From contig NZ_CP049869.1 of NCBI RefSeq assembly GCF_011300455.1, positions 868,001 to 932,000 on the forward strand: DNA of 64,000 bases, read 5' to 3'. The DNA is from Sphingomonas piscis. Its GTDB lineage: Bacteria; Pseudomonadota; Alphaproteobacteria; Sphingomonadales; Sphingomonadaceae. The position numbers were made by a program, and so were the translations under genes. Below the pieces are notes generated by a model. The model was given only the letters and a program-made list of their open reading frames with translations, searched no databases and was not told where the DNA came from. Positions 29,069 to 50,129 of this stretch are shown here, piece by piece. Within the stretch, counting starts at the first letter, position 1, and each line of letters starts with the position of its first letter.

Positions 29069-30493
29069 CTAAAGTTCCCATCCCTTCCGATACTCACGCG
29101 TTAGATATTGGTTGGCGCCGAGTACGTTGGTGACTGCCACCGCCCTGCCGTCATAGGCGATCGGCTGGTCGGCCTTCATGGCAACCATCCCCAGCACCAT
29201 CGTCTCATTGAGCGGCACCGCCATTTCGAACGGGTTGGAGATGCCCTCTTCGCCGCGGATTGCGCGGATCCAGTTCATCTCGTGCCCGCCGATGCCGCCT
29301 GAAATGCGCGGCAGGCTGACGGGGATCGCAGCTGCCTTGTCGGCAACGCCTTCCCCGAACAGGATCGGGTTTTCGCCATAGGTCTCGTGGATCAGGTAGC
29401 CGGTCTCCCCAACGAACATCACGCCGCCGCCCGGATCGAGCCGGCTTGAAGGGATGCCCTTGGGCGTCGGCGGCATCAGTCCGCCGTCGTACCAGATCAT
29501 GGTAACCGGCCCGCCCGGCGCGTTCGCGAACTCATAATGGGTGACGCTTGCAAGCGGGTAGCTGGTCAGCACCTCTGGCCCGGCACGATCCCACGGGTTG
29601 GTGTCCCCGCCCCAGCGCGAATGGCGGCTTTCGATCCGAGTCGGCAGGCCGGGCTCCAGCGCCCAGACGGGGAAGTCGATCAGGTGCGCGCCCATGTCGC
29701 CCAGCGCGCCGACCCCGAAAGGCACCCAGCCGCGCCAGTTGAAATGGCCGTAATCGGGGTTGTAACCCCAATCGACGGACGCCGGACCGAGCCACATGTC
29801 CCAGTCGAGGCTTGCCGGCGTATCCACCGGATCCGGCTTGGCGATCCCCTGCGGCCACACGGGGCGGTTGGTCCAGACATGGACCTCCCGGACCCTGCCG
29901 ATCACCCCGCCGCGGATCAGCTCCACAACGCGGCGCCCGTCATCGCCCGAGTGGCCCTGGTTACCCATTTGGGTCACCAACTTCGGGTTCTTGCGCGCGA
30001 GGTCGAGCAGCAGTCGCCCCTCGTGGACCGAATAGGCCATCGGCTTCTGAACGTAGACGTGGAGCCCGCGCTCCATCGCCATCTTGGCTGCGGCGGCGTG
30101 GTGATGGTCGGGGGTGGCGATGACCACGGCGTCGATGTCTTTCTGGGCATCGAACATGCGGCGATAGTCCGCATATTTCGCTGCCGCGTCATACTTGGCC
30201 TTCAGTGGGTCCCGCTCAGGATTCGGCTGTCCCTTGTCGTCCAGGAAAGCCCTGGCGACATGTTCGAAATCAACGTCGGCAAGCGCCACGATATTCTGGC
30301 TGACGAGATTATTGGCATTGTTGTTGCCCATCCCGCCGGCGCCGATGATGGCGACGTTCACCGTGTCGCTCGGCGCCAGCTTTCTTCGCTTGCCGCGCGG
30401 CGCCGCTTCGGCCGATGCCGACAATGCGGCGGCGCCAAGCGCTGCAGCCCCGGAAGCCACGAAGTCGCGTCGGCTGAAGTCCATATCGATCAT
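29069..30493 (-). CDS. Tat-exported Gfo/Idh/MocA family oxidoreductase
   Basis: 474 residues. A twin-arginine signal (SRRDFVASGAAALGAAALSA) precedes the NAD(P)-binding Rossmann motif VNVAIIGAGGMG. The family KP motif is present as VQKPMAYSVHEG, where E-K-P is the rule and here the residue before K is Q. The C-terminal substrate domain contains GALGDMGAHLIDFPVWAL and MNWIRAIRGEEGISNPFE. Periplasmic members hold their nucleotide tightly, as in glucose-fructose oxidoreductase. It is the last gene of a minus-strand operon after a GMC oxidoreductase and its small subunit, so a keto-sugar substrate is likely. Confidence 0.87.
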   Translation of the reverse strand: MIDMDFSRRDFVASGAAALGAAALSASAEAAPRGKRRKLAPSDTVNVAIIGAGGMGNNNANNLVSQNIVALADVDFEHVARAFLDDKGQPNPERDPLKAKYDAAAKYADYRRMFDAQKDIDAVVIATPDHHHAAAAKMAMERGLHVYVQKPMAYSVHEGRLLLDLARKNPKLVTQMGNQGHSGDDGRRVVELIRGGVIGRVREVHVWTNRPVWPQGIAKPDPVDTPASLDWDMWLGPASVDWGYNPDYGHFNWRGWVPFGVGALGDMGAHLIDFPVWALEPGLPTRIESRHSRWGGDTNPWDRAGPEVLTSYPLASVTHYEFANAPGGPVTMIWYDGGLMPPTPKGIPSSRLDPGGGVMFVGETGYLIHETYGENPILFGEGVADKAAAIPVSLPRISGGIGGHEMNWIRAIRGEEGISNPFEMAVPLNETMVLGMVAMKADQPIAYDGRAVAVTNVLGANQYLTREYRKGWEL

Positions 30494-30496
30494 GCG

Positions 30497-31171
30497 TTAT
30501 GACTTTCGCTTGAGGTTCAGGCTGGCAAGGACCTGGTCGAGGTGGGCAAGGGCTTCGGCGCTCGGGCCGGGGTAATCACCCTCCAGCGGCACGTTGCCGA
30601 TGTAGCCGAGCTCCTCAATGCCGGGCTCGCTGGTGTAATAAGCCCCTGCCGTCAGGAACTTCATCTTGTCGAGAAAGGCCTTCCCCTTGGGGTCGGCTGC
30701 GGCGGCGGCGGTCAGGATTGCGCCGCGCTGTGCCTCGCCGAGCTGAGCATAGCCGCGGCCATGCTGCCTCCGCGCCTCACGCTCGACCCATGCGAAGCCG
30801 GCGAGTAAGGTGGCGCGGTCCGCCTGCTGATCCGGATATGGGGCGCTGACCCATTCGTTGACGAAATGGTGGATACCGATCGTGCTCGGCGCCGGCCACT
30901 GACCCTCGGCCGGCAGGATGGTGTCGCACAGTGCCGCCGCCGTATCCAGCTGTGCCGCCGTCAGCGTCTTGGGCCAGGGAACGACCGGCTCCAGCATAGT
31001 CGGATCGGTGCCGTAGCCCGGTGCCGTTACCGGCGGCACCGTGACGGACGGCCAGTCGCCGCCCGTCGTCGGCGGCGCAGCATAGGCACCGTTCAGCGGC
31101 ACGCTTCCCGCCGCGATCGCACCCGCAAGCCATTGCAGCGTCACTCGCCGGTCGATCTCAGGCCCGCTCAC
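30497..31171 (-). CDS. Gluconate 2-dehydrogenase subunit 3-like protein (small subunit of GMC 1)
   Basis: 224 residues of the gluconate 2-dehydrogenase subunit 3 family, the small partner of membrane-associated GMC dehydrogenases. The N terminus (EIDRRVTLQWLAGAIAAGS) is a Tat-like signal. The body has LDTAAALCDTILPAEG, WVEREARRQHGRGYAQLGEAQRGAIL and FLDKMKFLTAGAYYTSEPGIEELGY, typical of the family. The start is a GTG that overlaps the GMC stop (GTGA). In characterised FAD-glucose and gluconate dehydrogenases this subunit carries the signal peptide for the catalytic subunit. The catalytic neighbour here has none. Confidence 0.88.
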   Translation of the reverse strand: MSGPEIDRRVTLQWLAGAIAAGSVPLNGAYAAPPTTGGDWPSVTVPPVTAPGYGTDPTMLEPVVPWPKTLTAAQLDTAAALCDTILPAEGQWPAPSTIGIHHFVNEWVSAPYPDQQADRATLLAGFAWVEREARRQHGRGYAQLGEAQRGAILTAAAAADPKGKAFLDKMKFLTAGAYYTSEPGIEELGYIGNVPLEGDYPGPSAEALAHLDQVLASLNLKRKS

Positions 31172-32853
31172 AGTTCACCCCTCTTGCGGCGGCGAAGCAG
31201 CTCGACGCTTCCGCGCCACGCCAGTGCCATGATGCTGAGGGTGGGGTTCTTGTCGGGATTGGACGGCAGCACCGACCCGTCCATCAGGTACAGACCCGGC
31301 ACGTCCCACGCCCGGCCGAAGCTGTCCACGACGGAGTTCTTGGGATCGCCACCCATTCGCGCGGTGCCGACCTCGTGGATCATCTCGCCGCCCGCGCTGA
31401 TCTTCACCGGACCCGACGCATCGGCGGCGTCATACTTCGCCCCGATGCGATCGAAGATCTCGACCATCGTCTTGCGCATATGCTCGGCCTGGCGAATTTC
31501 CGGCTCACCCCACTTCCAGTGGAAGCGAAGCACGGGAATTCCGAACTTGTCCTTGGCGCTCGGGTCCAGCTCGCAATAACAATCCTTGTTGGGGATCATC
31601 TCGCCGCGCCCGGCAAAGCCGATGCCGCTGCCGAAGGTCCGCCGCATATGGTTGCGCAGCCCCTTGCCGAACCCTTCGAAGCCGAGCGCATTCCAGCCAT
31701 GGCCCATGCCCGGATGCTTGCCCCAGTCACCCCAGACTTCGAGATGATACCCGCGCGGGAACCCCAATTCCTTATGCTTTTCGTCTTGCCACCAAGGCAT
31801 GTAGACATGGGCGAAGGAGACGCCGTCCTCATTGTACATCGGCCGCCCCTCGAGCGCGGGAACCTTGGCGCCCATGCCGAACCCAACCGTGTCCATCAGG
31901 TTCATGCCGACCTGCCCGCTCGAATTGGCGAGGCCGTCCGGTGAACGGCTTTTCGAATTGAGCAGGATACGCGCAGTCTCGCAGGCGCTGGCGGCAAGCA
32001 CCACGGCGCCCGCTTGCGCTTCCTTCCACTGGCCGGTTTTCTTGTCGACGTAGCGGATGCCGGTCGCTTTCCCGGTTTTGTCGGTAAGCACTTCGGCGAC
32101 CATCGCGTCGGTCGTCACTGTCACGTTGCCGGTCTTGAGCGCGGGCGGCAGAAGCACTGTGACCGCCTGAAAGTTGGCCTTGATGGAACAGCCGCGGTCG
32201 CACGGCGACGCGTAGAAACAGGGGTCGCGGCCGTCGATCGGACGAGTGATGATGGCGCGTGGCGGAGCGATGCATGGAATTCCCATCTCATCGCAGGCCG
32301 CCTTCAGCAGCAGTTCCGGCACCCGTGGCACCGGTGGCGGCTGGCGGATTCCGGGCGGCGAATGCGGCACGTTCGGCAAGTCGATATTCTCGCCGATCAC
32401 GCCCATCAGTTTCTCAGAACGGTCGTACCAGGGTTTCAGGTCGTCGTAGCCGATCGGCCAGTCCACCCCCATGCCATCACGGCTGTATGGCTTGAAATCG
32501 AGCGGCCCGAAGCGCGGCACGTGGCGCGCCCAATGGTTGGTCCGCCCGCCAAGCATCCGCGATCGCCACCACATGAACTGGCTTCCCTCGGCCACCGTGT
32601 AGGGCTCGCCCGGAACTTGCCAGCCGCCGTCCACCGTCGCGTCATAATAGCCGAACGGCTTGTCCGGGGTGCTGACCGCACGCAGCGGCGCCTCCCGATC
32701 CCAGTTCATCATGGGAGTCTCGGCCTCGGGATCGTAGTGGCGACCTGCTTCGTAGATGTGCACCTTCACGCCCGCACGGCCGAGCGCATAGGCGGCCATG
32801 CTGCCGCCGACGCCTGAGCCGACGACGATCACGTCCGGCTGGTTAGTTGCCAT
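31168..32853 (-). CDS. GMC-family FAD oxidoreductase 1 (glycoside/sugar dehydrogenase type)
   Basis: 561-residue flavoenzyme. The FAD motif VVGSGVGGSMAAYALG is at residues 10-25. A cysteine set C212-x5-C218-x3-C222 lies at the position where bacterial FAD-glucose dehydrogenases bind an iron-sulfur cluster. The catalytic His region reads HEVGTARMGG, and the C terminus has the Asn-Pro motif DKNPTLSIMAL. There is no signal peptide, so export by hitch-hiking on the Tat-signalled small subunit is likely. It resembles the LacA/LacC pair that oxidises lactose in Caulobacter, but no LacB-like cytochrome c is adjacent. It leads a three-gene minus-strand operon. Confidence 0.9.
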   Translation of the reverse strand: MATNQPDVIVVGSGVGGSMAAYALGRAGVKVHIYEAGRHYDPEAETPMMNWDREAPLRAVSTPDKPFGYYDATVDGGWQVPGEPYTVAEGSQFMWWRSRMLGGRTNHWARHVPRFGPLDFKPYSRDGMGVDWPIGYDDLKPWYDRSEKLMGVIGENIDLPNVPHSPPGIRQPPPVPRVPELLLKAACDEMGIPCIAPPRAIITRPIDGRDPCFYASPCDRGCSIKANFQAVTVLLPPALKTGNVTVTTDAMVAEVLTDKTGKATGIRYVDKKTGQWKEAQAGAVVLAASACETARILLNSKSRSPDGLANSSGQVGMNLMDTVGFGMGAKVPALEGRPMYNEDGVSFAHVYMPWWQDEKHKELGFPRGYHLEVWGDWGKHPGMGHGWNALGFEGFGKGLRNHMRRTFGSGIGFAGRGEMIPNKDCYCELDPSAKDKFGIPVLRFHWKWGEPEIRQAEHMRKTMVEIFDRIGAKYDAADASGPVKISAGGEMIHEVGTARMGGDPKNSVVDSFGRAWDVPGLYLMDGSVLPSNPDKNPTLSIMALAWRGSVELLRRRKRGEL

Positions 32854-33592: not shown

Positions 33593-34342
33593 ATGATGAT
33601 CATCGCCATCGCGCTCGCCGCCGCCGCTCAACAGCCCAAACCCGAAGAGACGGAGCAGTGGACCCCTGTCCCGCCGATCGTCACGCCGGGACCGGTCACC
33701 TCGCCGGCGCCGCCGTCCGATGCCGTCGTGCTGTTGGGTAGTGGCACCGATCTCAAGGAATGGGCGTCGATGGACGGCAAAGCCGCTGCCTGGACCTTAA
33801 ATCGCGACGGCAGCGTCACCGTCAAGAAGGGCACCGGCAACATTCAGACGCGGCGCAGCTTCACTAACTATCAGCTGCATCTGGAATGGCGCGTGCCGGT
33901 GGGCATCAAGGGCGAAGGCCAGGGCCGCGGCAATAGCGGGTTGTTCCTGGCGTCCACCGGAGCCGGTGACAGCGGCTATGAGCTGCAGATCGTCGACAGT
34001 TTCAACAACAAGACCTACGTCAACGGCCAAGCCGCCAGCATCTACAAGCAGTCGCCGCCGCTCGCCAACGCGATGCGCGCGCCCGGGCAGTGGCAGACCT
34101 ATGACGTGATCTGGCATGCGCCGGTCTTCAATGCCGACGGCAGCGTCAAGTCGCAGGCCAGAGTCACCGCCTTTCACAACGGCGTGCTGGTGCAGGACGA
34201 TTATCATGTAACCGGTGAGACGGCTTATATCGGCAAGCCGCAGTACGAGGCGCACGGCCCGTCACCGATCAAGCTGCAGGATCATGGCGACCCCAGCCAG
34301 CCGATCAGCTTCCGCAACATCTGGGTGCGCGAGCTTCCCTAG
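33593..34342 (+). CDS. DUF1080 / 3-keto-disaccharide hydrolase family protein, exported
   Basis: 249 residues. A short signal-like N terminus (MMIIAIALAAAAQQ) precedes a jelly-roll domain of the DUF1080 family, now named 3-keto-disaccharide hydrolase. Family features seen are VVLLGSGTDLKEWASMDGK, FTNYQLHLEWRVP, GRGNSGLFLAS, GYELQIVDSFNNKTY and IKLQDHGDPSQPISFRNIWVREL. Members cleave 3-keto-glucosides made by C3 oxidation of glycosides. The position between two GMC modules and next to keto-sugar reductases fits this. Two adjacent ATGs (33593, 33596) are possible starts and neither has a strong ribosome binding site. Confidence 0.85.
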   Translation: MMIIAIALAAAAQQPKPEETEQWTPVPPIVTPGPVTSPAPPSDAVVLLGSGTDLKEWASMDGKAAAWTLNRDGSVTVKKGTGNIQTRRSFTNYQLHLEWRVPVGIKGEGQGRGNSGLFLASTGAGDSGYELQIVDSFNNKTYVNGQAASIYKQSPPLANAMRAPGQWQTYDVIWHAPVFNADGSVKSQARVTAFHNGVLVQDDYHVTGETAYIGKPQYEAHGPSPIKLQDHGDPSQPISFRNIWVRELP

Positions 34343-34462: not shown

Positions 34463-35980
34463 TCAGCGCACCAGCCGATAGCTGACGAAGGCAATGCTTT
34501 TGCCGTCGGGAGACCAGCTCGGCACGTTGATTGTCCCCTGCCCGCCGAACAGCCGGGTCAGCACCTTGGGCGGCGCGCTGCCGTCAGCCGGCATGATCCG
34601 CAGCAGGACGTCGCGGTTCGGTGGATGGTCGCCCAGCGCTACATCGAGCCCGAAGGAGATAAAGGCGACCCACTTGCCGTCCGGTGACAGGTGCGGGAAC
34701 CAGTCGCGGAAGTTAGGGTCGGTCGTCACCTGCACGGGGTTCGAACCGTCGGCATTGGCGCGCCAGATCTGCATCGCCCCGGTGCGTGTCGAGTTGAACC
34801 AAAGCGACTTGCCGTCCGGCGACCATTCCGGCCCGTCGTTGGTGCCCGGTCCGGCGAGCAGCACGCGATCCTTGGTGCTGCCGATGTCGCGGCCCCAGAT
34901 CTCATATTTGCCGTTGGTGGTGTGGACGTAAACATACGCCAACGTCTTCCCGTCGGGCGACCAGCCGTGCCAGTAGGACCGCGCGTCAGGATGGCTGACC
35001 CGAAGCACCGGTCTGTCCGACCCGCCGACCGGCAGCGTATAGATGCGCGACAGATTGTCGGGCTGGCTCTGGTCGGAAATGACGAGCTGGGTGCCGTCGG
35101 GCGACAGGCCGTGGTCGTTGTTGTTCTTCAGCTGCTTGCCGGTGTTGACCTGCACCGGCTGGCCGCCGTCGACCGCGATGCGCCAGATCTTGCCTTCGGC
35201 ATTGTAGATCAGCGACTTGCCGTCCCGGCTCCAGTTCGGCGCTTCGATCTTGCCGGGGAAGTGGCGGACGACCCGGCGGCTCTGGACGCCGTCGACCTCC
35301 ATCACCTCCAGGCTGGCCTCGACCCTCGCCGGGTAACCGGTGTCGGACACGTAGGCGAGCTTGGGAACGGCGATCTGCACGTTGGCAAAGTTGGCGGTCT
35401 CCACCACCGTGTCGTTATGCGCGGAAAGAGCCAGTCCGACGAGGTAGGGCGCCTGAAACGGGATCCGGAAGTTGCCGCCGGCATGGGCGAGCTTGCCGCC
35501 GTAGGGCGCGACCGAGAACCAGACGTAATCGCCTTCGCGCTCCAGTCGGATGCGTGCGCTGCTGGTTTTGAGCGCCGAGATGATCTGCCGCGTCGGGCCG
35601 TCCTGCACCTCGCGATATTGCATGGCGATCAGGCCGTCGCCGTGGACCATCACGTCGGCATACGGCGAGCCGGGCGTCTTGTTCTGGCGGATCATCACAC
35701 CCGCCTTGCGATGCGGATCGGTGCCCTTGCCCTCAAACGACACGTCGGCGGAAATGTGGATGTCGCCCGTCCGCTCGGTCCAGGCATATTGGAAAGCGTC
35801 AGCTTCGCCCCAGATGTTGGCGCCGCTGGCAGTCAGGCGATAGCCCTTAGCGGCGAAGGCAGTCGTTCCTTTCACCGAGGTTTTGCCGATGTCGGCGCTC
35901 TGGTCGAAGATCCCGACCTTGGCCGCCGCTGGCGATGCGGCGAGCAACGCGCCGAGCGCCGCCACTAAGATGCCCCTCAT
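34463..35980 (-). CDS. Exported TolB-like WD40/PD40 beta-propeller protein
   Basis: 505 residues with a signal peptide (MRGILVAALGALLAASPAAA). Residues about 25-200 form a lectin-like domain (SGANIWGEADAFQYAWTE, HRKAGVMIRQNKTPGSPYAD, ALSAHNDT). The rest is a beta-propeller with repeated PD40 units, for example NWSRDGKSLIYN, GWSPDGKTLAYV, EWSPDGKSLWFN, HLSPDGKWVAFI and SWSPDGKSIAFV. Such proteins occur in glycan-use loci and may bind carbohydrate, but no enzyme site is visible. The ATG at 35980 follows GGGGAGAGAGG. The gene is divergent from the Gfo/Idh operon. Confidence 0.85.
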   Translation of the reverse strand: MRGILVAALGALLAASPAAAKVGIFDQSADIGKTSVKGTTAFAAKGYRLTASGANIWGEADAFQYAWTERTGDIHISADVSFEGKGTDPHRKAGVMIRQNKTPGSPYADVMVHGDGLIAMQYREVQDGPTRQIISALKTSSARIRLEREGDYVWFSVAPYGGKLAHAGGNFRIPFQAPYLVGLALSAHNDTVVETANFANVQIAVPKLAYVSDTGYPARVEASLEVMEVDGVQSRRVVRHFPGKIEAPNWSRDGKSLIYNAEGKIWRIAVDGGQPVQVNTGKQLKNNNDHGLSPDGTQLVISDQSQPDNLSRIYTLPVGGSDRPVLRVSHPDARSYWHGWSPDGKTLAYVYVHTTNGKYEIWGRDIGSTKDRVLLAGPGTNDGPEWSPDGKSLWFNSTRTGAMQIWRANADGSNPVQVTTDPNFRDWFPHLSPDGKWVAFISFGLDVALGDHPPNRDVLLRIMPADGSAPPKVLTRLFGGQGTINVPSWSPDGKSIAFVSYRLVR

Positions 35981-36028
35981 CCTCTCTCCCCTTTTCCTGG
36001 AAATGAGTGTGCGGCGAGTTCGGCTAAG

Positions 36029-36046
36029 GCGCAAGCGGGCTTGCGC
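36029..36046. promoter_or_regulatory. 7-bp inverted repeat between divergent genes
   Basis: GCGCAAG and CTTGCGC face each other across CGGG at 36029-36046, midway between the divergent TolB-like gene and the Gfo/Idh operon. It may be an operator for one or both transcripts; no terminator-like T-tract follows. Confidence 0.4.
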
Positions 36047-36090: not shown

Positions 36091-37203
36091 ATGACCGAGG
36101 AGATCGACCGTCGGACCACTTTGGCGGGGCTTGGAGCGATCGGCCTGACCGCCGCTGCCTGCGGATCTGCGCAGGTTCCGCCGGGCGGCGGACGCAAGCT
36201 CGGCTATGCCATTGTTGGGCTGGGCAGTTATGCGACGCGCCAGATCATGCCGCGCTTCAAGGATTGTCGTTTCTCACGGCTCACGGCGCTTGTCAGCGGC
36301 ACGCCGTCCAAGCTTGAGCAATATGGCGAGGAATACGGCATCCCCGGACGCAACCGCTACAGCTACGCCAACTTCGACAGCATCCGGTCTAACCCGGACG
36401 TCGACATCGTCTACATCATCCTGCCCAACAGCATGCATGCCGAATATACGGTGCGCGCGGCCCGAGCCGGCAAGCATGTGATGTGCGAAAAGCCCATGGC
36501 GGTGAGCTCGGCCGAATGTCAGCAGATGATCGCCGCCTGCCGACAGGCAAACCGTAAGCTGATGATCGGCTATCGAAGCCGCTTTCAGCCGCACAATATC
36601 GAAGCGATCAGGCTGGCCCGGAGCCGCGCCGTCGGCAAGCCGGGCCTCATCGAATCCGAACATGGCTTCACAATCGGCGACCCGACCCAGTGGCGGTTGA
36701 AGCGTGCATTGTCGGGCGGCGGGTCGTTGATGGATATCGGCATCTACAGCGTCCAGGCGCTGCGCTACATGGCGGGCGAGGAGCCGGTGTCGGTGTCCTC
36801 GACCGAGTTCACCGACCGACGCGACGTCCGCTTCCGCGATTGCGAGGACCGGATCGCCTTCAACTTCCTCTTCCCCTCGGGTCTGATCGGCCAGGGATTC
36901 TCCTCCTACAACAGCAACCACAATCATCTCCGGCTTTCCGGAGACAAGGGCTGGATCGATCTCGATCCGGCCACCAGCTACGGCGGGCAGAAGATGCGGG
37001 TGCGGATCGGAAGCGACGAACGGGAGGTCGATCCGCCCGCCGGGCCGGGCGCCAACCAATTCGCCGCTCAGCTCGATCACCTTTCCCAATGCGTCCTCAC
37101 CAACAGGGAGCCGATCGTGAACGGTGAAGAGGGTCTTCGCGACCTCAGGGTCATGGAGGCGATCTATCGCTCCATGAAGGAAGGCCGCACCATTCGCCTG
37201 TGA
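36091..37203 (+). CDS. Gfo/Idh/MocA family oxidoreductase with Tat/lipoprotein signal
   Basis: 370 residues. The N terminus EIDRRTTLAGLGAIGLTAAAC combines a twin-arginine motif with a lipobox-like cysteine, so it is probably exported and perhaps lipidated. The Rossmann motif is YAIVGLGSYATRQI and the family motif is CEKPMAVSSAEC. The C-terminal domain has GGGSLMDIGIYSVQALRYMAGEEP, like glucose-fructose oxidoreductase. GGAGGG precedes the ATG. It is the first gene of a five-gene plus-strand operon with two isomerase-like TIM barrels, a second Gfo/Idh enzyme and an MFS transporter. The substrate is unknown; a keto-sugar is likely. Confidence 0.88.
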   Translation: MTEEIDRRTTLAGLGAIGLTAAACGSAQVPPGGGRKLGYAIVGLGSYATRQIMPRFKDCRFSRLTALVSGTPSKLEQYGEEYGIPGRNRYSYANFDSIRSNPDVDIVYIILPNSMHAEYTVRAARAGKHVMCEKPMAVSSAECQQMIAACRQANRKLMIGYRSRFQPHNIEAIRLARSRAVGKPGLIESEHGFTIGDPTQWRLKRALSGGGSLMDIGIYSVQALRYMAGEEPVSVSSTEFTDRRDVRFRDCEDRIAFNFLFPSGLIGQGFSSYNSNHNHLRLSGDKGWIDLDPATSYGGQKMRVRIGSDEREVDPPAGPGANQFAAQLDHLSQCVLTNREPIVNGEEGLRDLRVMEAIYRSMKEGRTIRL

Positions 37204-37261
37204 GCGCTTGCCGCGGGCAAAAGCTTCGCTAACAAGGTGAAAAGCCTTGGGAGAGGGAAAC

Positions 37262-38182: not shown

Positions 38183-38191
38183 GGTACCCGC

Positions 38192-42215: not shown

Positions 42216-42978
42216 TTGACGCCCCCCAGGACTCCTTCCGAACCTAGCCTGCAGCCGCTGCTGAGGAAGCTGGGCTACTGGCAGCCGCTGTCGCCCGAAG
42301 ATCGCAAAGGCTATCCTTGATCTTCCGCACACGGTCCGGCGCTGCGAACCGGGCAATTACATCATCCGGGAGCATGACCGGGCGGAGAACGCCTGTGTGA
42401 TCCTTTCGGGCTTCGCGATCCGCCATAAAATCGTCGGCGGCGGCCATCGGCAAATCCTGTCCATCCACATGAGGGGCGAAGCGGTCGACCTGCAGAACAC
42501 GTTGCTGCGCACGTCCGACCATAGCGTCCAGATGCTGTCGCGCGGGGATGTCGCGTTGATCGCGCGTTCAAAGATCGAGCAGCTCGCCTTCGAACGGCCG
42601 GCGGTTGGCAAGGCGATGTGGATCGATACGCTGGTGGACGCCTCCATTCACCGGGAATGGGTCGCCAACATCGGCCGCCGCGACGCAAAGACCCGCATTG
42701 CGCACCTGCTTTGCGAATTATCGCTGCGCCTGAAGGTCGCCGGCCTTGGCGATCAGGACAATTACGAGATGCCGCTGACGCAGGAGCAGCTTGCCGATGC
42801 GACCGGCTTGACGCCTGTCCACGTCAACCGCAGCATCAAATATCTTGAGGCCGAAGGATTGATCGAACGCATAAGCCCGCGGTCGATCACTATCGGCGAC
42901 TGGCGCAAGCTTGCCGACTTCGGCGACTTCAACAGCCAGTATCTGCACCTTCAGGATGGCGAGCCGGCACTGGCCTAA
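42216..42978 (+). pseudogene. Crp/Fnr-family regulator with a one-base frameshift
   Basis: A paralogue of the intact regulator just downstream, broken near its 5' end. A TTG at 42216, seven bases after GGGAG, opens a frame reading SLQPLLRKLGYWQPLSPEDRK that aligns with the paralogue but stops at 42318-42320. From about 42310 the continuation AILDLPHTVRRCEPGNYIIRE is in the next frame and runs to 42978 with the cAMP-binding-like fold and the HTH (LTQEQLADATGLTPVHVNRSIKYL). Removing one G of the GG at 42309-42310 restores one open frame of about 253 codons. It could be a pseudogene, a +1 frameshift or a sequencing error. A truncated product from 42397 lacks half the sensor domain. Confidence 0.8.
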
Positions 42979-43014
42979 AGGGCAGCTTTTCGCCAAAAAT
43001 TATCACTGTTTACT

Positions 43015-43025
43015 GGAACAGTTCC
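43015..43025. promoter_or_regulatory. Palindrome GGAACAGTTCC before the intact Crp/Fnr gene
   Basis: An 11-base palindrome (five-base arms around a central A) lies 67 bases before the intact regulator gene and overlaps an ACTGTT-N6-AACAGT repeat at 43005-43022. It could be an autoregulatory site. It does not match the classic Crp or Fnr half-sites. Confidence 0.35.
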
Positions 43026-43092
43026 TGGCGCTTAACATTGGTGAAGGAACCCTCACGCGAGGCAAGTTAGTCCAGCGCATCACTAGTACGCG

Positions 43093-43830
43093 ATGAGTGC
43101 CCCGTTGAGCGAACCCTCCTTGCTGACACCGCTGCTTCAAAGGTGGGGTCGCGCAGTCCAACTGACCAACGAAGACAAGCAGGCCATCATGGCCCTGCCG
43201 AGCACGCGCCGCATCTTCGAGCGCGATACCTACATCGTCCGGGAAGGCGAACCCCCTAACAACTGCAACCTGATCCTGCGCGGTTTCGCTTTCCGGCAGA
43301 AGCTGGTGAGCAACGGCGCCCGGCAGATCATCTCCCTGCACATTCCCGGCGAGTTCGTCGATCTTCAGAACATCCTGTTCGATGTTGCCGACGACAGCGT
43401 GCAGAGCCTCGGCCGTTCGGAAGTCGCGGTGGTGCCGAAGGCGGCGCTGACCGACCTGTTCGCGGCCAACCCGAACATCCGGCGCGCGGCGTGGCTCGAC
43501 ACGCTGGTGGATGCATCGGTGTTCCGGGAGTGGGTCGTGAACCTTGGCCGGCGGGACGCGCGCGGCCGTATCGCCCACCTTCTGTGCGAGCTGATGGCGC
43601 GGCTGAAGGCCTCCGGCCTGATGGACAGCCCCGTCTGCGACTTCCCGCTGACTCAGGAACAGATCGCCGACGCGACTGGCCTGACGCCCGTCCACACCAA
43701 CCGGACTTTGCAGATGCTGCGCAGAGACGGGCTGATCAACCTGTCGTCAAGCAAGCTGACGATCCTGGACTGGAAGAAGCTGGCCGACATCGGCGACTTC
43801 AACGATCGCTACCTTCACCACGCGGGCTGA
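43093..43830 (+). CDS. Crp/Fnr-family transcriptional regulator
   Basis: 245 residues. The N-terminal cyclic-nucleotide-binding-like beta roll reads FERDTYIVREGEPPNNCNLILRGFAFRQK and IPGEFVDLQNILF. The C-terminal winged HTH has LTQEQIADATGLTPVHTNRTLQMLRRDGLI. There is no N-terminal cysteine cluster, so it is not an oxygen-sensing Fnr type. The cyclic nucleotide arginine-serine pocket of true Crp is also not evident, so the ligand is unknown. It lies 114 bases after its frameshifted paralogue and may replace it. Possible targets include the metal-receptor genes downstream. Confidence 0.9.
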   Translation: MSAPLSEPSLLTPLLQRWGRAVQLTNEDKQAIMALPSTRRIFERDTYIVREGEPPNNCNLILRGFAFRQKLVSNGARQIISLHIPGEFVDLQNILFDVADDSVQSLGRSEVAVVPKAALTDLFAANPNIRRAAWLDTLVDASVFREWVVNLGRRDARGRIAHLLCELMARLKASGLMDSPVCDFPLTQEQIADATGLTPVHTNRTLQMLRRDGLINLSSSKLTILDWKKLADIGDFNDRYLHHAG

Positions 43831-43861: not shown

Positions 43862-44269
43862 ATGAGCGATCCGATGCGCGGCCAGCCAGCCAGATTCGCC
43901 TTCGCCGCGATCCTGTTCGCGCTGACCGTGCGCCTGATGGTGCCCACGGGCTGGATGCCCGCCCCCGAAGGTGGGTTCAACATCGTGCCCTGCATCGCGG
44001 CAGCGCCGGCGCCTGCAGCCAAACACGGCCACGGCGGGCATGATGACCATGGCAAGAACCACGACAGCAGCAAGGAACACGGCAAGAGCGCCGACTGTGT
44101 TTTCGCGCCGCTGCTGGCAAGCGCGATGCTGCCGGACCTTGCGGTGCCCACAACGCCTTTCCTGTCCGTGCGGACGGTACCGGTTCCCGCCCCTCGGGGC
44201 GCGGCCAACCTGCCGACCGGTCCGCCGGCCCTTCCTCCACCCTCCACGGGACCGCCAGCCCTCGCCTGA
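43862..44269 (+). CDS. DUF2946-like histidine-rich membrane-anchored protein
   Basis: 135 residues. One hydrophobic segment near the N terminus (FAFAAILFALTVRLMVPTGW) is followed by a His/Asp/Lys-rich stretch (KHGHGGHDDHGKNHDSSKEHGK), a cysteine in ADCVFAPLL and a proline-rich tail. This resembles DUF2946 proteins, which are often encoded next to TonB receptors thought to take up copper or other metals. The His-rich region suggests metal binding. The TonB receptor gene starts 35 bases downstream. Confidence 0.7.
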   Translation: MSDPMRGQPARFAFAAILFALTVRLMVPTGWMPAPEGGFNIVPCIAAAPAPAAKHGHGGHDDHGKNHDSSKEHGKSADCVFAPLLASAMLPDLAVPTTPFLSVRTVPVPAPRGAANLPTGPPALPPPSTGPPALA

Positions 44270-44304
44270 TCCGCACCATTCGCGACTTAATCAGGTGACC
44301 AAAT

Positions 44305-46518
44305 ATGCAGATGATTCATGCGCCCATGACGGCGCAGGAACCGGCGATCGTCGTCGTCGGCTCCCGTGAGGACGCTCATCAGGCGCCCAACACCACTGAA
44401 AGCAAGACTGCCGAAGAGCTTCGGCAGACGACCAATGTCCGCAACACGGAAGATGCGCTCCGCTACTTCCCCAGCCTGCTCGTCAGAAAGCGCCACATCG
44501 GCGACACGCAAGCGCCGCTCGCGACCCGCACCTCCGGCGTCGGCGCCAGTGCCCGCAGCCTGATCTATTCGGACGGCGTGCTGCTGTCGGCCTTGATCGG
44601 TAACAACAACAGCTTCGCCTCGCCGCGCTGGGGGATGGTGTCGCCCGAAGAGATCGACCGCGTCGACGTGCTCTACGGGCCCTTTTCGGCGCGCTACCCC
44701 GGCAATGCGATCGGCGGAGTGGTCGAGATCAGCACCCGCATGCCCGGCCATTTGCAGGGCAGTGTCACCGTCGCCGGCAACCGCCAGCACTTCGACCAAT
44801 ATGGCACGGACGGGAATTACCCTGCTTACCAAATTGCGGGGACGGTCGGCGACAAGGCTGGCCCGTTGTCGTGGTTCCTGTCGGCCAACCATGTCGACAG
44901 TAAAAGCCAGCCGCTCGCCTATATCACCGTCGCCCAATCGCCGACGAGTGCGACTCCAGGCCGTGCGGTCACCGGTGCCTTTGATCGTCTGAGCCGCACC
45001 GGATCGCCGATCTTCGTTATCGGCGCCGGTGGGTTCGAGCGCCAGCGGCAGGATAATTTTAAGGCCAAGATGGCGCTGGACCTGGCGAGCGGCTTCAAGG
45101 TCCGTTGGCAGTCCGCCGTGTTCCTCAACGACACGAACTCCCACGCGCGGACCTATCTGACGGACGCCGGCGGCAATGACGTACTCTCGGGCGTTGTGAA
45201 CATTGGCGGTCGCAACATCTCGATCCCGGCCACGGCATTCTCCAACCAGGTCTACCGCTTCGATGAGCGGCATTGGATGCATTCCGCCAGCATCGAGCAG
45301 GCCGCGCCGGGCTTCTTTTGGTCGTTGACAGGGTCGATCTACGATTATGGCAAAAGCGAGCAGCGCATTGTTGGCTCGGCGGCAGCAATCGGCACCAATG
45401 GAGCGGGGTCGGTCGTGCGGATGAACGGCACCGGCTGGCGAACCCTGGACCTTCACGGTTACGCGCACGCGACCGGTGCCCATCAGGTGCATGTCGGCGC
45501 GCACTATGACGGCTTCACGCTGAAGAATGCTCGGTTCGCGACGGCCGACTGGAAGTCCGGCGAGCGCGGCGCGCTCACCCAATTGTCCAGGGGGCACACC
45601 CGGACCTTCGCGATCTGGGCCGAAGACCAATGGAGCCTCGCGCCGAGCCTGATGGCAACCATCGGTGCGCGCTACGAATGGTGGAAGGCGTATGGCGGAC
45701 GCAACTTCAGCATGGCCCCGGTGCTGGCGGTCGAGCAGCCGGAAGTGATCTCCAGCGGGCTCTCGCCCAAGGCTTCGCTTCGGTGGCAAGGGACAAGAGG
45801 CTGGTCCGCGACGCTGTCGGCCGCACGCGCCATTCGCTTTCCTACGGTCAGCGAACTGTATCAGGCGATTGCGACCGGGCCGACGATCACCGTTCCCAAC
45901 CCGAACCTCCGGCCGGAAAAGGCGAACTCCGCCGAACTGGCGGTCGAGCACCGGAGCAATGGTGGGCACATCCGGCTCTCGCTGTTCCGAGAAGTAGTGC
46001 GCGATGCCCTGTTGTCGCAGAGCGCGCCGCTGCCCGGGTCGACGCAATTGTTCAACTATGTCCAGAATGTCGGGAAGACGCGCACCAATGGGCTGGAAGC
46101 ATCGTTCGAACGGCGCGATCTGCTGCCTCGGTTCGACGTCTCGGGCAGCTTCACCTTAACCGATCCGACGATCGTGTCCGACCCTGCGTTCAGGGCCGCG
46201 GAGGGCAAGAACATCCCGCAAGTGCCGCGCCGCAAGGCAACCCTGGTCGGAACCTGGCGCGCCACGAACGCGGCATCATTCACGCTCGCCGGACGCTACG
46301 CCAGCCGTTCCTATGGGACGATAGACAACAGCGACGTGGTCGCCCACACCTATCAAGGTTTCGAGCCCTATCTGGTGCTGGACGCGCGGGCGGTGGTGAA
46401 GCTTCCCCGCAACCTTCAGTTCGCGGTCGGCGCGGAGAATTTCACCGACAAGCGCTACTTCCTGTTCCATCCCTTCCCGGGGCGGACGCTGACGGCGGAG
46501 GTGGGCTGGAGGTTCTGA
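44305..46518 (+). CDS. TonB-dependent receptor without a visible signal peptide
   Basis: 737-residue outer-membrane receptor. The plug domain is complete (NTEDALRYFPSLLVRKRHIGD, YSDGVLLSALIG, IDRVDVLYGPFSARYPGNAIGGVVEI), and the beta barrel ends with FTDKRYFLFHPFPGRTLTAEVGWRF with the expected terminal Phe. The TonB box may be PAIVVVGS. The N terminus MQMIHAPMTAQEPA is too short for a signal peptide, and an in-frame stop lies nine bases upstream (44296-44298), although AGGTGA is well placed for this ATG. Either the signal was lost or the sequence has an error. The His-rich neighbour suggests a metal substrate, the sugar genes a glycoside. Confidence 0.87.
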   Translation: MQMIHAPMTAQEPAIVVVGSREDAHQAPNTTESKTAEELRQTTNVRNTEDALRYFPSLLVRKRHIGDTQAPLATRTSGVGASARSLIYSDGVLLSALIGNNNSFASPRWGMVSPEEIDRVDVLYGPFSARYPGNAIGGVVEISTRMPGHLQGSVTVAGNRQHFDQYGTDGNYPAYQIAGTVGDKAGPLSWFLSANHVDSKSQPLAYITVAQSPTSATPGRAVTGAFDRLSRTGSPIFVIGAGGFERQRQDNFKAKMALDLASGFKVRWQSAVFLNDTNSHARTYLTDAGGNDVLSGVVNIGGRNISIPATAFSNQVYRFDERHWMHSASIEQAAPGFFWSLTGSIYDYGKSEQRIVGSAAAIGTNGAGSVVRMNGTGWRTLDLHGYAHATGAHQVHVGAHYDGFTLKNARFATADWKSGERGALTQLSRGHTRTFAIWAEDQWSLAPSLMATIGARYEWWKAYGGRNFSMAPVLAVEQPEVISSGLSPKASLRWQGTRGWSATLSAARAIRFPTVSELYQAIATGPTITVPNPNLRPEKANSAELAVEHRSNGGHIRLSLFREVVRDALLSQSAPLPGSTQLFNYVQNVGKTRTNGLEASFERRDLLPRFDVSGSFTLTDPTIVSDPAFRAAEGKNIPQVPRRKATLVGTWRATNAASFTLAGRYASRSYGTIDNSDVVAHTYQGFEPYLVLDARAVVKLPRNLQFAVGAENFTDKRYFLFHPFPGRTLTAEVGWRF

Positions 46519-46535
46519 GCCGCCGGCCCATCACC

Positions 46536-47291
46536 TCACTTGGTCTTGAGCACCCACTTCAGGCCGCCGGCCACGTGGTTGAGGAAGTTGGGTTCGCTGT
46601 AGGACTCGTTCGTGTGGCCCATGGCGGTGTAGAAGACCCGGCCGCCTTCGTAGGTGTGGGCCCAGGACACCGGATTGGGATTGACGTCCGTCTGACCGAT
46701 CGACTGCGGGTCGACCGTGACCAGCAGCTTCATGGTCGGATTATAGTCGTCGAAATAATACCATTCGTCGGCGCGGGTGATGCTGGTCGGCATCCGCGCC
46801 GTCGAGGGGTGATCCTTCGCCTCGACATGGATCGTGCCGGTCGGCGTCCCCTGCGGGTGGCGCGCGAAATGGCCGCCGATCATCTTCTGGTACCAGGGCC
46901 AATGATAATGGGAGTCGGTCGCGGCATGGATGCCGAGAATGCCGCCGCCACGTTGGACGAAGTTCACGAAGGCGGTGCGCTTGTCACCCTGGAACCACTC
47001 GCTTTCGGGCTTTTTGGGATCCGTGGTGTTGCTGAGCAGGATGATCGCGTCATACTTCTTGAGCGAGGCATCGGTGAAGACGCTGTCGTCCTCCGTCGCC
47101 GTCATGTCGATCTTTTCGCGGGTCCCCAGCTGCTTCAGCGCCGCAACGCCGGCCTCGATCGACGCATGACGGTAGCCGGTCGTCTTCGAAAAGATCAGCA
47201 CCTGCTTGCGCGCGGCCTGCGCCGGCGCACTCGCCATGACCGCTGCCGCCACGCTCAGCACGATCGTCCGAGCCCAACCCGATTTCAGCAT
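46536..47291 (-). CDS. ThuA-domain protein, exported
   Basis: 251 residues with a signal peptide (MLKSGWARTIVLSVAAAVMASAPAQA) and a ThuA-like domain of the glutamine-amidotransferase-like fold: KQVLIFSKTTGYRHASIEAG, YDAIILLSNTTDP, RGGGILGIHAATDSHYHWPWY and the C-terminal RVFYTAMGHTNESY. ThuA/ThuB take part in trehalose use through 3-keto-trehalose, and ThuA-like proteins recur beside GMC and DUF1080 genes. The start at 47291 gives a clean signal peptide; a frame open to 47345 adds a segment without one. It is divergent from the second subunit 3-GMC-pseudoazurin operon. Confidence 0.87.
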   Translation of the reverse strand: MLKSGWARTIVLSVAAAVMASAPAQAARKQVLIFSKTTGYRHASIEAGVAALKQLGTREKIDMTATEDDSVFTDASLKKYDAIILLSNTTDPKKPESEWFQGDKRTAFVNFVQRGGGILGIHAATDSHYHWPWYQKMIGGHFARHPQGTPTGTIHVEAKDHPSTARMPTSITRADEWYYFDDYNPTMKLLVTVDPQSIGQTDVNPNPVSWAHTYEGGRVFYTAMGHTNESYSEPNFLNHVAGGLKWVLKTK

Positions 47292-47327
47292 CCCCTTGTC
47301 TCCCCAGGATATTTGTTGCCGTTTGGC

Positions 47328-47335
47328 TAACGTTA
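47328..47335. promoter_or_regulatory. TAACGTTA palindrome in the ThuA/GMC 2 divergent promoter region
   Basis: An 8-base palindrome with the AACGTT centre lies 37 bases upstream of thuA-like and 80 bases upstream of the subunit 3 gene. The same TAACGTTA core is in a 12-base palindrome before zwf (57883-57894). LacI-family regulators use operators of this symmetry; the link is speculative. Confidence 0.35.
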
Positions 47336-47415
47336 TGAATCTCAACAGCTTGTCTAGACAGGTTTTTGGGACGTGACTATGCCGGTGGCAAATAACAGGC
47401 CCAAGGAGAGGGTGC

Positions 47416-47964
47416 GTGCTTCAACCAGGTGATTTCTCGTCGCTGGACCGGCGCGAATTGATGCGCAATGCGGTGCTGCTTGTCGGCGGCACCCTGGCGG
47501 CGACGAGTCCGGCGGCCGCCCTCGCCCAATCGAAGTCGAAGAAGCCCGCGCGCTTCTTTTCGCCCGCGCAAAATGCCGTGATGGCGGAGACAGTCGACAT
47601 CATCATTCCGCGGACGGATACGCCGGGCGCGAAGGATGCCGGGGTCCCGCAAGCCTTTGACGCCATGATGCGCAACTGGGCCAATGCCGAACACCGGGCG
47701 CAATATGTGAGCGTGATCGACGAGATCGGCGGCATGGGCCTGATGAAACTGAAGCCGGCCGAGCGCCTGGAACTCATCCGGAAATTTGATGCCGACAAGC
47801 TGCAGGCGGGTGACCAGAATTATCGCCGGTTCAAGGACCTGACGATGACCCTCTATTACCTCTCCGAACCGGGGGCCACGAAGGAGCTCCGCTACGAGCT
47901 GATCCCCGGCAAGTGGGAACCCTGGATCGAGGTCACGCCGGATACCCGCACGTGGGCAGCTTAA
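47416..47964 (+). CDS. Gluconate 2-dehydrogenase subunit 3-like protein (small subunit of GMC 2)
   Basis: 182 residues with a Tat-type signal (LDRRELMRNAVLLVGGTLAATSPAAALAQ). The body has FFSPAQNAVMAETVDIIIPRTDTPGAKDAG and FKDLTMTLYYLSEPGATKEL, typical of this small-subunit family and clearly related to, but shorter than, the one at 30.5 kb. The start is GTG with AAGGAGAGGG upstream. The GMC oxidoreductase follows after 27 bases. It is expected to carry the catalytic subunit through the Tat system and to help couple it to the electron acceptor. Confidence 0.88.
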   Translation: MLQPGDFSSLDRRELMRNAVLLVGGTLAATSPAAALAQSKSKKPARFFSPAQNAVMAETVDIIIPRTDTPGAKDAGVPQAFDAMMRNWANAEHRAQYVSVIDEIGGMGLMKLKPAERLELIRKFDADKLQAGDQNYRRFKDLTMTLYYLSEPGATKELRYELIPGKWEPWIEVTPDTRTWAA

Positions 47965-47991
47965 CGAAACTCTGGGCGGGGATGATCAGCA

Positions 47992-49674
47992 ATGTTTGAT
48001 GCAATCGTAGTCGGGTCGGGCATGAGCGGCGGCTGGGTGGCCAAGGAGCTCACCGAAAAAGGCCTCAAGACGCTCGTGATCGAGCGCGGCCGCCACGTCG
48101 AGCATGGTTCCGATTATAAGGACGGGCTGCAGCCGTGGGAGCTCGAGAATTATGGCATGGTGCCGGAGGACGAGGCCGACAAGGACTATTTCGTCCAGAA
48201 GCGCTGCTACGCATTCAGCACCGCGAACCAGGATTTCTGGGTCAAGGACAGCGACCACCCCTATACCTATCCGGCCGACAAGCCGTTCCTGTGGATCCGC
48301 GGCTATCACCTCGGCGGCCGATCGATCATGTGGGGGCGCCAGTCCTACCGCATGTCGCCGATGGACTTTGAATCCAACGCCAAGGACGGCCATGGCAACG
48401 ACTGGCCGATCCGCTACGAGGATCTGAAGCCCTGGTACGATCATGTCGAGAAGTTCGCCGGCATTTCGGGCTCGAAGGACGGCCTGCCGCAGCTCCCTGA
48501 TGGCGAATTCCTGCCCGCTATGGCCTTCACTGGCACCGAAGTAGATTTCAAGAAGAAGCTCGAGGCCAAGTGGCCGACCCGTAAGATGATCATGGGCCGC
48601 GCCGCTCACCTGACGGCGGTCACGCCTGAGCAGGAGGAACTGGGCCGCTCGACCTGCCAGTACCGCGCCCTTTGCGAGCGTGGCTGCTCGTTCGGCGCTT
48701 ATTTCTCCAGCCTCAGCGCCACGCTGCCGGCGGCGGAGCGGACCGGCAACCTGACCATCGTCACCGATGCGATCGTCCACAGCGTCGTCTACGATCCGAA
48801 GACCAAGAAGGCGACGGGCGTCCGGGTCATCGATGCAAAGACCAGGGAAGGCCGGACCTACGAAGCCAAGGTCATCTTCCTCAACGCCTCGACCATTCCG
48901 ACGGCGCAGATTCTCCTGAACTCCAAGTCCGAAGCTTTCCCGAACGGTCTTGCAAACCGCTCCGACGCGGTCGGCCGTTATCTGATGGACCACATCAGCC
49001 TCGGCGCGGGTGGCACCTATCCGGGCTTCGAGGATCGCTACCATCACGGCCGCCGTCCCAACGGCTTCTACATTCCGCGTTATCGCAACGTGACGGAGAA
49101 GGCGGAAAGCTTCGTTCGAGGCTTCGGCTACCAGGGCGGCATCTACCGCGACAATTGGCGGCGCGGCGTCAACGCGCCGGGCGTGGGTGCGGAGCTGAAG
49201 AACAACATGCGCAAGCCGGGACCCTGGCAGGTGCGTCTCACCGGTTTCGGCGAAATGCTCCCACGCAAGGAAAACCGCGTTACCATTCACCAGAGCAACG
49301 TCGATCAGTGGGGCATGCCGATCGTCAATATCGATTGCGGCGTAGGTCCGAACGAGAGAGCGATGCTGGACCAGATCGGCAAGGACGCACGCGAGATGCT
49401 GGAGTCGGCCGGTGCCACCAACATCGGTGTCGCCACTTACTACGGCGGGCTGGGCCTCGGTATTCACGAAATGGGCACGGCGCACATGGGCAAGGACCCG
49501 ACCAAGTCGGTGCTCAACAAGTATAACCAGGCCCACGACGTTCCGAACCTGTTCATCACCGATGGTTCAGCAATGGCTTCGGGCGGGTGCCAGAATCCAT
49601 CGCTTACCTACATGGCGATGTCCGCTCGGGGGGCTCATTATGCAGCGGAATTCCTGAAGGAAGGCCGCATCTAG
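47992..49674 (+). CDS. GMC-family FAD oxidoreductase 2
   Basis: 560-residue paralogue of the GMC enzyme at 31.2 kb. The FAD motif is VVGSGMSGGWVAKELTEKG. The cysteine set C222-x5-C228-x3-C232 has exactly the spacing seen in GMC 1 and is a candidate iron-sulfur site. The active-site region is GLGLGIHEMGTAHMGKDP, and the C-terminal Asn-Pro motif is GGCQNPSLTYMAM. There is no signal peptide; the preceding small subunit supplies a Tat signal. A pseudoazurin gene follows after 17 bases and is probably the electron acceptor. The substrate is probably a sugar or glycoside. Confidence 0.9.
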   Translation: MFDAIVVGSGMSGGWVAKELTEKGLKTLVIERGRHVEHGSDYKDGLQPWELENYGMVPEDEADKDYFVQKRCYAFSTANQDFWVKDSDHPYTYPADKPFLWIRGYHLGGRSIMWGRQSYRMSPMDFESNAKDGHGNDWPIRYEDLKPWYDHVEKFAGISGSKDGLPQLPDGEFLPAMAFTGTEVDFKKKLEAKWPTRKMIMGRAAHLTAVTPEQEELGRSTCQYRALCERGCSFGAYFSSLSATLPAAERTGNLTIVTDAIVHSVVYDPKTKKATGVRVIDAKTREGRTYEAKVIFLNASTIPTAQILLNSKSEAFPNGLANRSDAVGRYLMDHISLGAGGTYPGFEDRYHHGRRPNGFYIPRYRNVTEKAESFVRGFGYQGGIYRDNWRRGVNAPGVGAELKNNMRKPGPWQVRLTGFGEMLPRKENRVTIHQSNVDQWGMPIVNIDCGVGPNERAMLDQIGKDAREMLESAGATNIGVATYYGGLGLGIHEMGTAHMGKDPTKSVLNKYNQAHDVPNLFITDGSAMASGGCQNPSLTYMAMSARGAHYAAEFLKEGRI

Positions 49675-49691
49675 TTCGACGGAGAGTATCT

Positions 49692-50129
49692 ATGACGTTT
49701 GCGTTTCGTGCTGCCCTTGCAGCGTCCGCCATCGCGCTTGTCGCGGTTCCAGCATCCGCCAAGCAGCATCAGGTCAAGATGCTGAACAATGGCGCAAGCG
49801 GCCTGATGGTGTTCGAACCCGCCTTTCTGAAGGTGGCGCCGGGCGACAGCGTGAAATTCCTCGCAACCCAGAAGGGCCACAACGCGGAGATCGTCGCGGG
49901 CATGACCCCGGGACCAGGCTTCAAGGGCAAGATCAACGAAGAGATCGTCGTCACCTTCTCCAAAGAAGGCCTCTACGGCTACAAATGTCTGCCGCACACC
50001 GGCATGGGCATGGTCGGCCTGGTGCAGGTCGGCAAGCCGGTCAACAAGGGCTCGGCGACCGCCGCCGCAGCCAAGCTTCCTGGCCTCGGCAAAAAGCGTA
50101 TGACCGCGCTGCTTGCACAAGCGAAGTAA
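49692..50129 (+). CDS. Pseudoazurin-type blue copper protein
   Basis: 145 residues with a signal peptide (MTFAFRAALAASAIALVAVPASA). The type 1 copper ligands are all present: His63 (GHNAEI), Cys99, His102 and Met107 (KCLPHTGMGM), with the C-x2-H-x4-M spacing of pseudoazurins. A basic C-terminal extension (KLPGLGKKRMTALL) follows the cupredoxin fold. It is a periplasmic one-electron carrier. Its place right behind a GMC dehydrogenase gene suggests that it takes electrons from that enzyme in place of a cytochrome c subunit. GGAGAG lies five bases before the ATG. Confidence 0.92.
   Translation: MTFAFRAALAASAIALVAVPASAKQHQVKMLNNGASGLMVFEPAFLKVAPGDSVKFLATQKGHNAEIVAGMTPGPGFKGKINEEIVVTFSKEGLYGYKCLPHTGMGMVGLVQVGKPVNKGSATAAAAKLPGLGKKRMTALLAQAK

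Follow-up and report, generated by a model that had tools for sequence, protein, structure and literature searches.

Oxidative breakdown of glycosides occurs in diverse bacteria, and the path by which the electrons released enter the respiratory chain has seldom been worked out. The locus analysed here raises this question in a concrete form. It lies in a stretch of 64,000 nucleotides (the window), positions 868001-932000 of the 2.72 Mb single-contig genome of Sphingomonas piscis (estimated completeness 99.69%), and contains two pairs of a GMC family FAD catalytic subunit and a Gluconate_2-dh3 small subunit (subunit 3), three Gfo/Idh enzymes, two TIM-barrel proteins, DUF1080, ThuA, MFS and TonB proteins and, directly behind the second GMC gene, a type-1 (blue) copper protein, pseudoazurin. 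This parts list had been drawn up in an earlier reading of the letters alone (the sequence-only reading), and profile matches recovered every item in its place. What, then, accepts the electrons of the second GMC enzyme, GMC2? At a probability of roughly three in four, the whole is best explained by a variant of Lac-type glycoside dehydrogenase, in which electrons would pass from GMC2 through an iron-sulphur (Fe-S) cluster to pseudoazurin.

Judged by spacing, the genes of the small subunit sub3_2 (47416-47964; PF13618, 2.1e-21), GMC2 (47992-49674) and pseudoazurin (49692-50129), all on the plus strand, make up one candidate transcription unit with gaps of 27 and 17 bases. The latter value agrees with the sequence-only reading, and no terminator-like site was detected in these 17 bases, the three found in the region corresponding to chance level. 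Signal sequences, twin-arginine translocation (Tat) and lipobox features were judged by eye from N-termini throughout this work. GMC2 has no signal sequence and adjoins a subunit with a twin-arginine start (LDRREL), whose R12 and R13 are invariant across 33 aligned sequences, which is the layout of the LacABC and fructose dehydrogenase type. The catalytic subunit aligns over its full length with fructose dehydrogenase (PDB 7w2j, 8jej), with C222, C228 and C232 in register, and with the FAD-glucose dehydrogenase of Burkholderia cepacia (6a2u). Its C-x5-C-x3-C motif, invariant across 24 sequences, we take to be an Fe-S site of the kind present in fructose dehydrogenase. Comparison of the sub3_2 fold with the small subunits of fructose and glucose dehydrogenases gave no useful match. 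The copper protein, which carries an N-terminal signal sequence, is a true pseudoazurin (TIGR02375, 142.3 bits, over the cut-off of 109.85) and the only match to PF00127 at E 0.001 in the genome. Pseudoazurins of the PDB match it at E 2e-33, an alignment was made to 1bqk, and H63, C99, H102 and M107, presumably the copper ligands, are all kept.

The possibility that the adjacency of GMC, subunit 3 and cupredoxin genes is unique to this genome, raised in the sequence-only reading, is rejected by two lines of evidence. The first is a second genome of the family (G372, locus L158), where an operon runs in the order Gfo/Idh C (GfoC), TIM2, MFS, TIM barrel, subunit 3, GMC2, ThuA, with identities to the window genes of 58% for GfoC, 75% for TIM2, 73% for MFS, 31% for subunit 3, 64% for GMC2 and 29% for ThuA, and where the pseudoazurin gene stands just upstream of GfoC. 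The second comes from contig sizes. Among the best 120 homologues of each protein, with one longest contig given per cluster, the GMC2 and pseudoazurin lists have at least nine contigs of identical size (5 kb or more) in common, and the sub3_2 and pseudoazurin lists at least eight; these overlaps are lower bounds, and one of the 120 pseudoazurin rows, having no size, was omitted. By chance (sizes shifted by 1-200 bases) 0.07 and 0.035 would be expected on average. Both counts include the genome of the window and a chromosome of 5.7 Mb; when these are set aside, at least nine separate contigs (7 to 89 kb) contain pseudoazurin together with GMC2, subunit 3 or both. Among near homologues of the GMC2, subunit 3 and pseudoazurin proteins, those with a named source belong to Sphingomicrobium, Sphingosinicella, Allosphingosinicella, Croceibacterium, Sphingomonas parva and one Phenylobacterium. 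Of 71 genomes in the host's genus, only that of the host has GMC2 at E 1e-100, and for this reason we regard it as an accessory gene.

The pseudoazurins of these loci also group together. In a tree of 89 sequences (66 of the 119 other listed homologues, including all module-linked ones, 22 loci and the window) the rows linked to the module, 12 in number with G372 and the window, need one change only; none of 500 shuffles reached so low a value, and 93% of bootstrap trees retain it. For P0156, one of these rows, the tie to the module is the 5.7 Mb chromosome alone. Rows linked to PQQ dehydrogenases need two changes and, like those linked to nirK, fall outside the module branch, so by their placement pseudoazurins appear to sort by partner. 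A tree of GMC2 (rows P0002-P0060, every fourth of P0061-P0120, and some loci out of L022-L059 and L103-L119) places eight linked rows and the window in a clade of 55 (support 98), with G372 in a neighbouring group of 25.

A position like that of pseudoazurin is taken in a few relatives by cytochrome c. In Sphingobium boeckii (L023), whose module is 59% (GfoC), 77% (TIM2), 67% (MFS) and 66% (GMC2) identical to that of the window, a signal-bearing mono-haem cytochrome c of 148 residues (PF00034, 40.6 bits) is encoded on the same strand and stops 2 bases short of the GfoC match, on the side where G372 has its pseudoazurin. In two Bacteroidota (L049, L053; GMC 54% identical) a mono-haem cytochrome c starts shortly after the GMC match ends (by 19 and 32 bases), in the slot of pseudoazurin in our window; their PF00034 scores are 24 and 26 bits (cut-off 21.3), and the true starts may lie further in. 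Neighbours of GMC2 relatives were scanned within 2.5 kb for 60 of 80 GTDB loci and then, with a stricter filter, for all 80. The filter for exported CxxCH proteins fired at six of them; of these six, five were profile-scanned (all but L069) and all five passed the PF00034 cut-off, L048 barely. Cytochrome neighbours are thus a minority, and the earlier picture of electrons going usually to a cytochrome c subunit proves overstated. These cases suggest that, in a few relatives, haem c and type-1 copper have traded places at comparable sites of a single module. The proposal of the sequence-only reading that pseudoazurin replaces the cytochrome gains from the recurring linkage, the grouping of pseudoazurins, the few cytochromes in like slots and the lack of a Cu-oxidase_3 protein described below, and loses its premise that a cytochrome is the usual neighbour.

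No cytochrome-like CxxCH open reading frame (ORF) of 80 residues or more was seen in the window, its two CxxCH ORFs of this size being far from the module and by eye not cytochromes. A c-type cytochrome subunit belonging to GMC2, or a free dehydrogenase cytochrome, was not seen in the genome when PF00034 and PF13442 were searched at E 0.001; the matches are the haem domain of a PQQ-dehydrogenase-like protein at 375 kb, a membrane-anchored cytochrome c and cytochrome c1.

Several observations weigh against pseudoazurin as the partner of GMC2. The membrane-anchored cytochrome c just mentioned could serve GMC2 instead. The pseudoazurin gene of G372 is divergent from the GMC operon and so outside it. 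In the sampled genomes of the family (n=397) a GMC2 relative occurs in 60 (E 1e-100 or better) and pseudoazurin in 32 (1e-30 or better), and only two (our own, G372) of the eight with both (G000, G174, G220, G225, G303, G352, G372, G385) have them within 6 kb; in the remaining six, with GMC2 relatives 46-52% identical, they are widely separated on one contig (two genomes) or on different draft contigs (four). In the stretches fetched around GMC2 relatives of 50-68% identity, none of the 80 GTDB loci contains pseudoazurin. Conversely, among 104 pseudoazurin-hit loci (some places twice, most with flanks of 1.5 kb) a GMC or subunit-3 relative is found in five, of which four are the locus of the window itself, and most other sphingomonad pseudoazurins examined do not adjoin a GMC gene. 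Identical contig size is only a proxy for one contig and, still less directly, for gene adjacency. Support for the module-linked branch (87/62) is not strong, and the pseudoazurin label is patchy in the GMC2 tree, with eight changes against a shuffled mean of 9.8 (15 of 500 shuffles as low), although neighbours are available for only a minority of the metagenome rows. The module branch also includes rows for which no neighbours are recorded and the pseudoazurin of G577 (L159), whose 19.8 kb stretch has no GMC2 relative, so that placement beside GMC may not extend to every member. G577 was not counted as a linked case: the GMC gene that lies some 5 kb off shares only 30% identity with GMC1, the first GMC of the window, over 232 residues, and its neighbour is by inspection not subunit 3.

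As a rival explanation, pseudoazurin might be a general periplasmic shuttle, from bc1 to oxidase or for a PQQ dehydrogenase elsewhere, standing by chance behind GMC2, which a cytochrome c or quinone would then serve. Among 19 sphingomonad pseudoazurin regions (L158-L176, that of G372 included) nine have quinoprotein or PQQ-dehydrogenase markers, a nirK relative occurs in two and the GMC module in a single one, and seven contain none of these; the PQQ-dehydrogenase-like protein and the membrane-anchored cytochrome c of the host give such a shuttle possible partners. However, the PQQ-dehydrogenase-like protein has a haem domain of its own, and pseudoazurins sort by partner in the tree, those of GMC modules recurring with the module, so we consider this explanation improbable.

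Another rival is a copper or stress circuit, to which pseudoazurin could belong together with a TonB receptor (44305-46518, plus strand) and a response regulator of PmrA/CopR/QseB-like type with its histidine kinase (50240-52287, plus strand; NCBIfam matches under cut-off, Pfam HATPase_c). The two-component pair starts 110 bases 3' of pseudoazurin, and its membership in the GMC2 module is uncertain; the second-best match of the regulator is TIGR01387, heavy-metal regulators (214 bits, under the cut-off of 279.2), and the TonB receptor is preceded by a His-rich ORF of 135 aa (43862-44269) with a weak match to DUF2946. We find such a circuit very unlikely to account for pseudoazurin: where pseudoazurin and module recur, in L158, no response regulator matched, the sub3_2-GMC2 pair is flanked by ThuA and pseudoazurin and not by the TonB gene, and the DUF2946 match reaches only 15.8 of the 23.7 bits required, with the family motifs CXXC and RAPP (given in PMC9426467) absent. 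A denitrification pseudoazurin, donor to NirK, parked at a sugar locus has in its favour a Chelatococcus plasmid with pseudoazurin near nirK, two sphingomonad cases near a nirK relative and two Crp/Fnr-type regulator ORFs in the window, and is rejected as hardly credible because the nearly complete genome has no match to Cu-oxidase_3 (PF07732; control positive in 8 of 14 genomes), hence no NirK, NosZ not having been searched for.

We therefore return to pseudoazurin as the probable acceptor of GMC2, because the two genes are linked on one strand without a terminator-like site, the linkage recurs in G372 and on shared contigs, the pseudoazurins group in their tree, haem c fills like slots in a few relatives, the Fe-S cysteines are in register, NirK is lacking, the PF00034 and PF13442 searches showed no free dehydrogenase cytochrome, and NdhAB, discussed below, offers a precedent. 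In the proposed mechanism GMC2 and Tat-exported sub3_2 would form a periplasmic FAD/Fe-S sugar or glycoside dehydrogenase of the LacABC or fructose dehydrogenase kind. Electrons would leave FAD by the [3Fe-4S] site of C222, C228 and C232, be taken up one at a time by pseudoazurin, and pass from it to the haem-copper oxidase, of which one was found in the genome, either directly or by way of the membrane-anchored cytochrome c. The oxidised glycoside, probably a 3-keto compound, might be cleaved or isomerised by the periplasmic DUF1080, TIM-barrel, ThuA and Gfo/Idh proteins, its product imported by the MFS carrier, and the pathway finished in the cytosol by TIM2 and Gfo/Idh C. This division follows from the N-termini: twin-arginine-like starts are seen in sub3_1, sub3_2 and Gfo/Idh A, a Tat-lipoprotein look in Gfo/Idh B and TIM1, and Sec-like starts in DUF1080, ThuA and pseudoazurin, therefore oxidation and cleavage are predicted outside and the last steps inside, with the MFS carrier between.

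LacB of the LacABC enzyme is a cytochrome c subunit, and the fructose dehydrogenase and Burkholderia cepacia FAD-glucose dehydrogenase complexes contain haem c subunits as well. A gene for such a haem c subunit was not seen in our locus. The Lac-type view that the sequence-only reading took of the parts list agrees with the cluster of Caulobacter crescentus in which the LacABC lactose/glycoside 3-dehydrogenase occurs with DUF1080 (PMC9007349), but in the window no cytochrome c gene was seen and pseudoazurin lies 3' of the GMC gene. The FAD glucoside 3-dehydrogenase of Rhizobium radiobacter has a mono-haem CYTc as acceptor (PMC9915066), so that an FAD dehydrogenase and a one-electron protein acceptor are common to both, with haem c there and, as proposed, blue copper here. 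A precedent is NdhAB of Agrobacterium tumefaciens S33, for which the adjoining pseudoazurin is the physiological acceptor, with electrons reportedly continuing to cytochrome c or oxidase (PMC7688666). NdhAB and, as predicted, GMC2 are periplasmic dehydrogenases with Fe-S clusters, and both have an adjacent pseudoazurin gene (17 bases away here, linked in G372); NdhAB, however, is a molybdopterin/[2Fe2S] enzyme without FAD, acts on nicotine and is not of the GMC family. For PQQ type II alcohol dehydrogenase, azurin is given as the acceptor (PMC8348568), again a blue copper acceptor of a periplasmic dehydrogenase, there azurin with a quinohaemoprotein. Sphingobium and its relatives likewise carry pseudoazurin genes next to a periplasmic dehydrogenase, there a PQQ alcohol dehydrogenase and thus a quinoprotein instead of a flavoprotein, and these pseudoazurins sit on another branch of the tree.

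By this comparison a pseudoazurin serving a periplasmic dehydrogenase is already known, and its pairing with a GMC flavoenzyme would be new. The literature on cupredoxins or pseudoazurin with GMC enzymes or dehydrogenases, judged mainly by titles and abstract openings and with few subscription papers, describes no GMC flavoenzyme-cupredoxin pair, in line with the remark of the sequence-only reading that it knew of no described glycoside 3-dehydrogenase using a cupredoxin, and the excerpts of PMC8348568, PMC7688666 and PMC10441963 do not mention one. On balance we lean towards the broader view that, among sphingomonads, Lac-type FAD/Fe-S glycoside dehydrogenases have exchanged cytochrome c for a dedicated branch of pseudoazurins as their specific acceptor, which would be the first known GMC flavoenzyme to cupredoxin transfer and an interchangeable haem/copper slot within one module. 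A recurring blue copper partner gives oxidative glycoside breakdown a direct candidate acceptor, and if pseudoazurin has this role, sugar use would be tied to copper supply rather than to haem c maturation. Pseudoazurin may also be suggested as an electron-transfer partner for direct-electron-transfer sugar biosensors.

The remaining genes of the module stand upstream, where Gfo/Idh B (36091-37203; PF01408 4e-27; NF041392 209 bits, under the cut-off of 350; Tat-type N-terminus, lipobox-like AAAC), TIM1 (37247-38182; a sugar isomerase/epimerase-like TIM barrel, PF01261 2.7e-20; Tat-type N-terminus, lipobox-like LPGC), Gfo/Idh C (38192-39343; PF01408/PF22725), TIM2 (39340-40389; PF01261 1.7e-41), the latter two with no signal sequence seen, and the MFS transporter (40414-41730; PF07690 4.3e-21) form, by spacing, a candidate transcription unit on the plus strand with gaps of 43, 9, -4 and 24. 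This operon at 36-42 kb and that of GMC2 at 47-50 kb probably make up a single module split in two, because of the operon order in L158 and the co-occurrence of the genes in the 80 GTDB loci, in which relatives (E 1e-15, in the stretches fetched) of sub3_2 were found 50 times, GfoC 30, TIM2 27, MFS 19, ThuA 8 and DUF1080 6. The ThuA domain protein (46536-47345, minus strand; PF06283 4.1e-67; signal sequence) is divergent from sub3_2. A DUF1080 or 3-keto-disaccharide hydrolase family protein is encoded at 33593-34342 on the plus strand (PF06439 5.9e-37), with 33593 as the probable start by inspection (MMIIAIALAAAAQQ), and a PD40 (TolB-like propeller) protein with a signal sequence, at 34463-36034, lies between it and the Gfo/Idh operon.

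GMC1 and its neighbours are a set separate from the GMC2 module, with a Tat-type Gfo/Idh of their own. Gfo/Idh A (29069-30493), sub3_1 (30497-31171; PF13618 7.2e-20) and GMC1 (31168-32853; PF05199/PF00732; C212-x5-C-x3-C), the catalytic subunit of the other pair, constitute a candidate transcription unit by spacing on the minus strand with gaps of 3 and -4, the latter a 4-base overlap of sub3_1 with GMC1. GMC1 matches the large subunit of fructose dehydrogenase at E 7e-45, the two small subunits are the only Gluconate_2-dh3 matches in the genome, and Gfo/Idh A is related to the family of the Bacteroides glycoside 3-dehydrogenase BT_2158 (NF058561 374.6 bits, the cut-off of 750 not reached).

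The TonB receptor is probably not part of the sugar module. Its role as sugar receptor is not supported, since its best scores, below cut-off, are with heme and siderophore receptor models and it follows the His-rich ORF; together the two genes (43862-46518) look like a metal, perhaps copper, uptake pair. A CruR-type copper uORF (upstream ORF) in this place was rejected on account of the missing CXXC and RAPP. The two Crp/Fnr-type regulator ORFs lie in a row at 42397-43830, the second matching FixK/FnrL models below cut-off.

Pseudoazurins were met in other surroundings as well. On annotated plasmids of Sphingobium RAC03 and S. indicum B90A the gene stands beside PQQ-dehydrogenase or quinoprotein-relay genes, and in sphingomonads (L162, L165, L166, L170, L171, L173, L174, L175, L221, L222) it is commonly accompanied by genes of a PQQ alcohol-dehydrogenase system, namely for PQQ dehydrogenase, quinoprotein relay hydrolase, a SoxYZ-like protein and aldehyde dehydrogenase. 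In the genus of G372 it was detected in 51 of 94 genomes (E 1e-30). One genome of the host's genus (G556, L161) has at 9147-16417 a row of PQQ-dehydrogenase, ThuA, pseudoazurin and a small CxxCH protein, with a TIM barrel and Gfo/Idh nearby, which may represent a quinoprotein counterpart of this sugar route. Elsewhere in the window, a tryptophan halogenase family protein (PF04820, 423 bits) is encoded at 8848-10389, and at 13330-16540 the gene of a two-domain KaiC-type ATPase overlaps that of a hybrid histidine kinase.

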